Below are positions 1,776-3,380 of a stretch of DNA of 40,740 nucleotides, one piece after another (positions within the stretch are counted from its first letter, which is position 1; each line of letters opens with the position of its first letter). The stretch covers positions 1-40,740 of the forward strand of contig CATMPJ010000005.1 in the NCBI GenBank assembly GCA_950073265.1. The letters run 5' to 3'. This stretch comes from an uncultured bacterium (GTDB taxonomy: Bacteria > Patescibacteriota > Minisyncoccia > Phycocordibacterales > UBA918). The notes under the pieces are model-generated. The model did no database searches. It worked only from the letters and a program-made list of their open reading frames with translations, and had not been told where the DNA came from. The translations under genes and the position numbers were made by a program.

Positions 1776-3236
1776 TTAAATTAGAGTTTGATCCTAGCTC
1801 AGGATGAACGCTGGCGGCGTGGATGAGGCATGCAAGTCGAATGAATTTAGATTCATGGCAGACGAGGTAGGAACACGTAGGTACGTACCCAAGAGTCAGG
1901 GATAACCCGGCGAAAGTCGGAATAATACTTGATGGTCCCTTCGGGGTAAAGATTTATCGCTCTTGGAACGGCCTGCGGGCTATCAGCTTGATGGTAAGGT
2001 AACGGCTTACCATGGCTACGACGGCTAGGGGAGGTGAGAGCCTGACCCCCACCGATGGAACTGCGACACGGTCCATACTCCTACGGGAGGCTGCAGTCGA
2101 GAATCTTCCGCAATGGGCGAAAGCCTGACGGAGCGACGCCGCGTGGTGGATGAAGTCCTTAGGGACGTAAACACCTTTTATGAGGGAGGAAGTTTATTGA
2201 CGTTACCTCATGAATAAGGGGCTCCCAACTCTGTGCCAGCAGGAGCGGTAATACAGAGGCCTCAAGCGTTATCCGGATTCACTGGGCGTAAAGGGTGCGT
2301 AGGCGGTTATATTAGTCGGATGTTAAATCCTTGGGCTCAACCCAAGAATCGCATTCGAAACGGTATAACTAGAAGAAGTAAGAGGTGAACAGAACTCTCG
2401 GTGTAGGGGTGAAATCCGTTGATATCGAGGGGAATACCAAATGCGAAGGCAGTTCACTGGGACTTTCTTGACGCTGAGGCACGAAAGCGTGGGTAGCGAA
2501 TGGGATTAGATACCCCAGTAGTCCACGCCCTAAACGCTGTCCGCTGGTTTTGGGGAGAATCGACCCTCTCCGAGACGAAGTTAACACGTTAAGCGGACCG
2601 CCTGGGTAGTACGAGCGCAAGCTTAAAACTCAAAGGAATAGACGGGGGCTCGCACAAGCGGTGGATCATGAGGCTTAATTCGTCGATAAGCGAAAAACCT
2701 TACCAAGGCTAGAAACCATACTGCACGCTCTCCGAAAGGAGAGAAGCCTTCGAGGGTGTATGGCAGGTGATGCATGGCCGTCGTCAGTTCGTGGCTTGAG
2801 CTGTTCCCTTAAGTGGGGAAACGAACGCAACCCTCGTTGCCTGTTATATGTGTCAGGCGAGACTGCTCCCTCACGGGAGAGGAAGGTGAGGATGACGCCA
2901 GGTCAGCATGTCCCTTGATGCCTTGGGCTGCACTCGTGATACAATGGGAAGTACAACGGGACGCAATACCGTAAGGTGGAGCAAATCCTTATAAAACTTT
3001 CCTCAGTTCGGATTGTGGGCTGCAACTCGCCCACATGAAGCCGGAATCGCTAGTAATCGTGAATCAGCACGTCACGGTGAATACGTTCCCGAGCCTTGTA
3101 CTCACCGCCCGTCAAGTCAGGGGAGTCGGAAGTGCCCGAAGTTCGTCCTAGCGGCGACCTACGGTAAATTCGATAACAAGGACTAAGTCGTAACAAGGCA
3201 CGGCTAGCGGAAGCTGGTCGTGGATTAATTCCAATT
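1776..3236 (+). rRNA. rrs: 16S ribosomal RNA, divergent CPR type; ends approximate
   Basis: agagtttgatcctagctcaggatgaacgctggcggcg at the 5' end; gtgccagcaggagcggtaatac, attagataccccagtagtcc, caccgcccgtca, aagtcgtaacaagg; helix 45 with GGAA loop at 3199-3222. Confidence 0.97.
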
Positions 3237-3380
3237 GGACACGTTGTCGTACGCTTGGTAACAAGCCTACAATGACAGCTAATTGGTCGATGTTGTGTGT
3301 ATCAATTGAGCACGCAACGAGTAATGATACTCAACACTCTGAAGTGGTATTTGACTCTAGAGAAAGAACTAGTAGAAGCC

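Follow-up and report, generated by a model that had tools for sequence, protein, structure and literature searches.

Most bacteria use a motif in the 3′ tail of 16S rRNA to locate the start of a message. The CCUCC of this tail is among the most conserved bacterial sequences, and there is no settled answer as to why it persists even where Shine-Dalgarno (SD) pairing plays a small part. The window analyzed here is the whole 40,740-nucleotide stretch of contig CATMPJ010000005.1 (positions 1 to 40,740) from an uncultured bacterium. It carries a 16S rRNA gene whose tail lacks CCUCC. The locus raises the question of whether the anti-SD has really been lost and how translation would then start.

The 16S rRNA gene and its 3′ tail

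The following features were found around the 3′ end and flanks of the gene.

1661..1680, plus strand: 5′ arm of the pre-16S processing stem, 20 pairs with 3381-3400
1776..3235, plus strand: 16S rRNA gene, RF00177 (Rfam SSU_rRNA_bacteria), 1383 bits over the full model (1-1533)
3199..3222, plus strand: helix 45 with GGAA loop (KsgA target), 10/10 pairs
3223..3232, plus strand: altered tail GAUUAAUUCC where GAUCACCUCC would stand, read from the sequence
3381..3400, plus strand: 3′ arm of the pre-16S processing stem, pairing with 1661-1680; AAGGATAAGACAAAA is conserved in the genus
3440..3478, plus strand: terminator-like stem-loop with T run, read from the sequence as the end of a stand-alone 16S transcript

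Helix 45 consists of the arms CACGGCTAGC and GCTGGTCGTG around the GGAA loop. All 10 pairs described in the first-pass annotation are present, two of them G-U. The helix is followed directly by GATTAATTCCAATTGGAC (3223-3240), which aligns without gaps to the reference GATCACCTCC with three substitutions. GAUUAAUUCC likewise differs from GAUCACCUCC by three substitutions and no gap, and CCUCC has become AUUCC. The annotation had described a weak UUCC as all that remained. The gap-free alignment makes this UUCC an exact positional remnant of CCUCC, but not simply a free weak anti-SD, as it sits in a predicted pre-rRNA hairpin or helix (see below). The annotated absence of CCTCC between 3223 and 3480 was also correct, the plus strand being clear of it from 3100 until 3565. 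The first CCTCC (3565) lies past the terminator-like stem, which rules out an anti-SD shifted by insertion. The mature 16S 3′ end probably lies within 3228-3240. The full Rfam match and the intact helix 45 argue against a pseudogene. The processing stem has 20 consecutive pairs of which 19 are Watson-Crick. No 23S or 5S rRNA was found in the window by Rfam scan. Within positions 1560-3480 the 16S gene stands alone and has a processing stem and a terminator-like stem-loop to itself, and a tRNA-Ile(GAT) gene is located nearby on the opposite strand (4603-4677).

Tail states in the class

A helix 45 pattern search covered 194 genomes of the class Paceibacteria (Parcubacteria) and located the helix in 124. 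The class sample comprised 122 tails obtained from the pattern search and from fetched stretches. Canonical tails accounted for 41 of the 122 (18 families), eroded tails retaining CTCC as the core (for example UCAUCUCC or UUUUCUCC) for 18 (9 families) and motif-less tails for 63 (35 families), with some families split between states; families share history, so these genome counts are not independent and overstate the independent evidence. Anti-SD loss is graded across the class, from canonical through eroded to absent. It had been called rare in the first-pass annotation; within this class the absent state is the commonest one sampled, and the eroded tails come on top of it. Comparison with other Parcubacteria 16S genes past helix 45 found the loss to be common to the genus, the order and much of the class.

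A tree of 90 genomes was built from the 3′-terminal 620 bases of 16S, leaving out intron-bearing rows which gave long-branch artefacts. The absent state required 11 changes on this tree, at least six of them forced by well-supported branches, compared to 29.5 when shuffled. The 11 changes point to several losses. Anti-SD losses were probably multiple rather than single, and regain may have occurred too. Anti-SD-less families repeatedly show CACGGCUAGC/GCUGGUCGUG as helix 45 letters, and CAUCCGUAGC/GCUGUGGAUG predominate in canonical ones. Outside the class nearly all sampled genomes retain CCUCC, apart from one cluster of eroded tails. This cluster belongs to the same phylum (families f163, f131 and f151) and has the tails AACAUCUCC, AACACUUCC and AAUAUCUCU.

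Gene starts

Gene starts were analyzed with one simple script for all groups, with 49 kb of E. coli as positive control. The first ATG of each ORF served as its start, a choice which blurs signals, and ORFs had to reach 90 amino acids (120 in the first pass). The sample consisted of sequence stretches rather than whole genomes, the window's own genome being represented by approximately 390 kb of stretches and the window. A loose SD 4-mer preceded 10.3% of own-genome genes against a background of 8-9%, compared to 44.7% against 8.5% in E. coli. No SD enrichment was found before the own-genome genes, which stayed at background level with both motif sets. The box TANNNT was present at exactly -12 in 11.6% of own-genome genes against a background of 2.5% (p about 7e-18) and in 0% of genes in the E. 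coli control. For the own genome and genus together 58 of 390 leading genes had the box at -12 (12.7 expected), with TATACT and TACAAT as the enriched words at this position. Conserved leading genes were defined as those for which three or more of the other sampled genomes had a homologue. Among conserved genes the box at -12 was found in 13 of 67 in the genus (2.0 expected) and 32 of 165 in the order (4.0 expected).

A -10 box spanning -12 to -7 places the transcription start at or beside the A of AUG. Many mRNAs would then be leaderless. The absence of SD enrichment in conserved genes together with a -10 box at leaderless spacing suggests that initiation is SD-independent and largely leaderless. 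SD-independent initiation had been proposed from the changed tail, and it is the best inference from these data.

Initiation could instead be SD-independent on leadered messages as in Bacteroidia, with A-rich unstructured leaders and leaderless mRNAs in the minority. This is unlikely, though upstream regions are slightly A-rich near the start and the box at exactly -12 is above background in just about 9-15% of genes. A strong A signal is absent and the -12 box peak is sharp. Flavobacterium and other Bacteroidia are also bacteria with SD-independent initiation, but they keep a CCUCC which is hidden by bS21/bS18/bS6, whereas the window lineage has lost it (PMC9976891, PMC8710568). Masking of this type was not found in the window 16S, where there is no remaining CCUCC to mask, and the bS21-like match of the own genome is weak (22.5 bits, below the cut-off of 27).

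SD motifs in conserved and orphan genes

GGAGG or AGGAG preceded 21 of 390 transcript-leading genes of the genus, compared to 3-5 expected. Conserved leading genes showed no enrichment in any group, with 0/67 in the genus, 5/165 in the order, 3/153 in other anti-SD-less genomes, 1/42 in genomes with eroded tails and 2/107 in those with canonical tails. The corresponding values for orphan genes were 21/174, 26/147, 28/128, 13/34 and 17/97. Over the anti-SD-less genomes the motif was present before 75 of 449 orphan genes against 8 of 385 conserved genes (Fisher p about 1e-13). Throughout the class the GGAGG/AGGAG signal at SD spacing was confined to transcript-leading genes that are orphans and was missing upstream of conserved and of operon-internal genes, and this pattern was equal with and without the anti-SD (upstream regions L031-L149, L200-L299 and L303-L318). 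That conserved genes make no use of SD even in genomes with an intact CCUCC explains how the motif could disappear.

The SD-bearing orphans most likely arrived recently from donors that use SD. Among the few that were inspected are an M15-type peptidase, a methyltransferase and a protein resembling nucleoside deoxyribosyltransferases, and most of the rest have no family assignment. A phage origin was rejected as the SD-bearing orphans mostly had no PHROG or Pfam match. Signal peptides as a mark of SD-bearing genes were not borne out in the genus or the order.

The persisting motifs would also be explained by a cryptic anti-SD acting in trans, in which AGGAGG is still recognized by a non-16S RNA or a protein. 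Upstream of leading genes in anti-SD-less relatives this word is one of the most enriched 6-mers (13 vs 0.5 in the order), and it stands at normal SD spacing. The restriction to orphans, however, is seen likewise in the CCUCC-bearing relatives and fits recent gene acquisition better, making a reader in trans improbable. There is correspondingly only a slim chance that the orphan motifs are functional, with another RNA or ribosomal protein reading AGGAGG and accessory genes controlled apart from a leaderless core.

The pre-rRNA hairpin after helix 45

Four features were predicted in the tail and trailer.

3230..3239, plus strand: mini-hairpin UCC-AAUU-GGA, covarying in relatives (UCC/GGA, UCA/UGA, UCU/AGA)
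3231..3238, plus strand: 5′ arm CCAAUUGG of the trailer helix, from the consensus fold of 10 genus members; invariant in the alignment
3279..3286, plus strand: 3′ arm CUAAUUGG of the trailer helix, from the genus alignment and consensus fold, followed by conserved GGUCGAU (3285-3291)
3292..3318, plus strand: second conserved trailer hairpin, from the consensus fold (pairs 118-146), with several compensatory changes

In the precursor of canonical relatives the anti-SD CUCC lies opposite a GGGAG shortly downstream, and the resulting CUCC-UUUCUA-GGGAG occupies the same place as the mini-hairpin. At least five pairs were formed there in 62% of canonical tails compared to 8% in shuffles. CCUCC-less tails have UCC-AAUU-GGA, UUCA-AAU-UGAA and others at this site. 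An exact arm complement was present in 62 of 106 distinct tails, against a mean of 25.5 and a maximum of 41 with permuted downstream parts (5000 tries); relatedness inflates this count but the partner letters nonetheless change together. A general local-hairpin test was weak in anti-SD-less tails because of their A+T richness, and the specific arm-complement test was used instead.

In the genus CCAAUUGG can pair with CUAAUUGG 48 bases downstream and both arms are invariant. The adjoining hairpins have compensatory changes at 13 of 53 pairs. Judged from the sequence, the mini-hairpin and the trailer helix would be alternative pairings. The remnant UUCC would be at least partly paired in the precursor under both, leaving about GAUUAAUU as free single strand. 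The hairpin retained after helix 45 probably guides 3′-end maturation. The GGUCGAU-like motif after the first trailer hairpin of the genus recurs in many trailers of the class and is possibly a processing signal.

The changed tail could also be a new anti-SD, GAUUAAUUCC pairing with a changed SD (for example GGAAUU or AAUUAAUC) in the mRNAs of this lineage. This is very improbable. The tail is invariant in the genus, but the invariant stretch takes in the trailer helix and so need not reflect pairing with mRNA. Upstream of operon-internal genes AATTA (20 vs 7.5) and TTAAT (15 vs 5) are raised, but the k-mers raised there mostly hold TAA, the stop codon of the upstream gene. An excess of TTAAT was likewise seen upstream of leading genes (21 vs 8.5), where it overlaps the A+T-rich -10 box region. 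The G-bearing complements are flat before leading genes (GGAAT 1 vs 2.0, GAATT 1 vs 4.0, GGAATT 0 vs 1.5) and a new complementary SD is unsupported by them.

Copy number and fixation of the changed tail

The draft genome has 703,588 bases in 30 contigs and is 97.4% complete. No second 16S was found in this draft, with CACCUCC or otherwise, and the window copy is the sole one detected. GATCACCTCCTT is absent from the whole genome, and an anti-SD supplied from elsewhere was rejected on this ground; no source was found from which one could be spliced in. Single copies of GATCACCTCCTT are present in genomes G003, G009 and G038 and are not common to the relatives.

Eleven further genus genomes also have GGATTAATTCCAATTGGA after helix 45, on unrelated contigs and with 18 bases identical. 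The tail is identical in 12 genus genomes including the window's own and the change is fixed in the genus. CCTCC is missing from the tails of 13 further families of the order. No CCUCC-bearing 16S was found in the sampled genomes of the same order except on one probable contaminant contig of genome G174. The extra tail with CACCTCC there (G174:C6:260-311) is on a separate contig and its helix 45 is unlike that of relatives, so this canonical 16S is probably a contaminant. A scan of named genomes found CCUCC-less tails in records named Kaiserbacteria, Nomurabacteria, Taylorbacteria, Adlerbacteria, Lloydbacteria, Zambryskibacteria, Campbellbacteria and Wolfebacteria. Candidatus Elulimicrobium is a named relative with 95.4% 16S identity over the full gene.

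The first-pass annotation had argued from the paired flanks that an assembly join was unlikely; the flank stem is real and the identical tails in the genus bear this out. That the tail stems from misassembly or misbinning, or from a degenerate extra copy while a working CCUCC-bearing 16S lies elsewhere, is extremely improbable and largely refuted already by the tails of the genus, the order and the named groups, the intact gene and the absence of GATCACCTCCTT, even for a draft in 30 contigs.

Translation and maturation factors

Era is the protein which reads GAUCACCUCC. Its KH domain reads GAUCA and CCUCC (PMC10582724). No Era was found over the curated cut-off in 80 genomes of the class, the leftover matches being weak and G-domain-only, and its absence from the class has already been published (PMC12641178; also PMC10582724). 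Era was missing from genomes with and without CCUCC alike. Its loss can therefore only be permissive and was rejected as the sole cause. Era loss therefore took away one constraint before, and independently of, motif loss.

The window's genome encodes ksgA (over cut-off), IF3, YbeY and an S1-domain protein related to bS1. Loss of S1 as a driver was rejected as S1-domain proteins were present in all genomes tested. Loss of bS21 was also rejected, bS21-like matches being found both with and without CCUCC. The bS21-like match at G000:C16:16986-17096 is limited to positions 2-38 of the model and lies in an open frame of 133 residues, and bS21 is similarly divergent in many members of the class.

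Proposed mechanism

The observations are likely explained by a real anti-SD loss through relaxed selection in a lineage which starts translation without SD pairing. Many mRNAs would be leaderless, and the ribosome would bind via the start codon and initiator tRNA together with retained factors (IF3, S1-domain protein). Operon-internal genes would start by coupling to the upstream gene. With CCUCC read by neither mRNA nor Era the tail would have drifted. The sole remaining constraint would be the pre-rRNA hairpin directly after helix 45, in which pairing is kept while letters change. The order of events suggested is loss of SD use first and of the anti-SD second. E. coli ribosomes with an altered anti-SD still find correct starts (PMC7043885), which makes this mode of initiation plausible.

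Comparison with known systems

Bacterial anti-SD loss is already known, including in four CPR groups. A 16S lacking CCUCC was described for 128 taxa including Chryseobacterium, Elizabethkingia, Riemerella, Blattabacterium, Carsonella and some Mycoplasma (PMC6107228). These resemble the window in the intact helix 45, the replaced CCUCC, the lack of a usable SD signal and the occurrence in close relatives. They belong to another lineage, and the window's lineage adds the leaderless-spaced -10 box, the absence of Era and the class-wide graded loss. PMC10783764 lists 112 SD-scarce organisms without CCUCC, including Campbellbacteria, Wolfebacteria GW2, SR1 (Absconditabacteria) and Peribacter riflensis, and names five CPR genomes as CCUCC-less. 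The phenomenon and the radiation are the same as here, and Campbellbacteria and Wolfebacteria are also in the present named set. The order- and class-wide pattern, eroded intermediates, retained hairpin and leaderless promoters are not described in the parts of that work consulted. The leaderless-dominated Nanoarchaeia are similar in their reduced genomes, lost CCUCC and leaderless mRNAs, but have archaeal machinery where the window lineage has bacterial sigma-type -10 boxes and IF3 (PMC10783764). 16S 3′ ends are often incompletely annotated in these genomes (PMC12641178). A search of open-access journal papers found none that ties a missing anti-SD or leaderless messages to either Parcubacteria or Patescibacteria as a class. 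No earlier report appears to exist of the graded loss across the class, of the covarying hairpin that is kept or of the link to leaderless mRNAs.

Significance

The class offers a natural series of canonical, eroded and absent anti-SD in related genomes of one size. Era, one of two known readers of CCUCC, is already gone in this series and SD is unused by conserved genes throughout. Gene finders which give weight to SD motifs will put starts in the wrong place in these abundant uncultured bacteria, and annotation that uses CCUCC as the anchor of 16S will cut their genes wrongly. The series shows what holds CCUCC in place and that afterwards the letters drift while the pre-rRNA hairpin stays.
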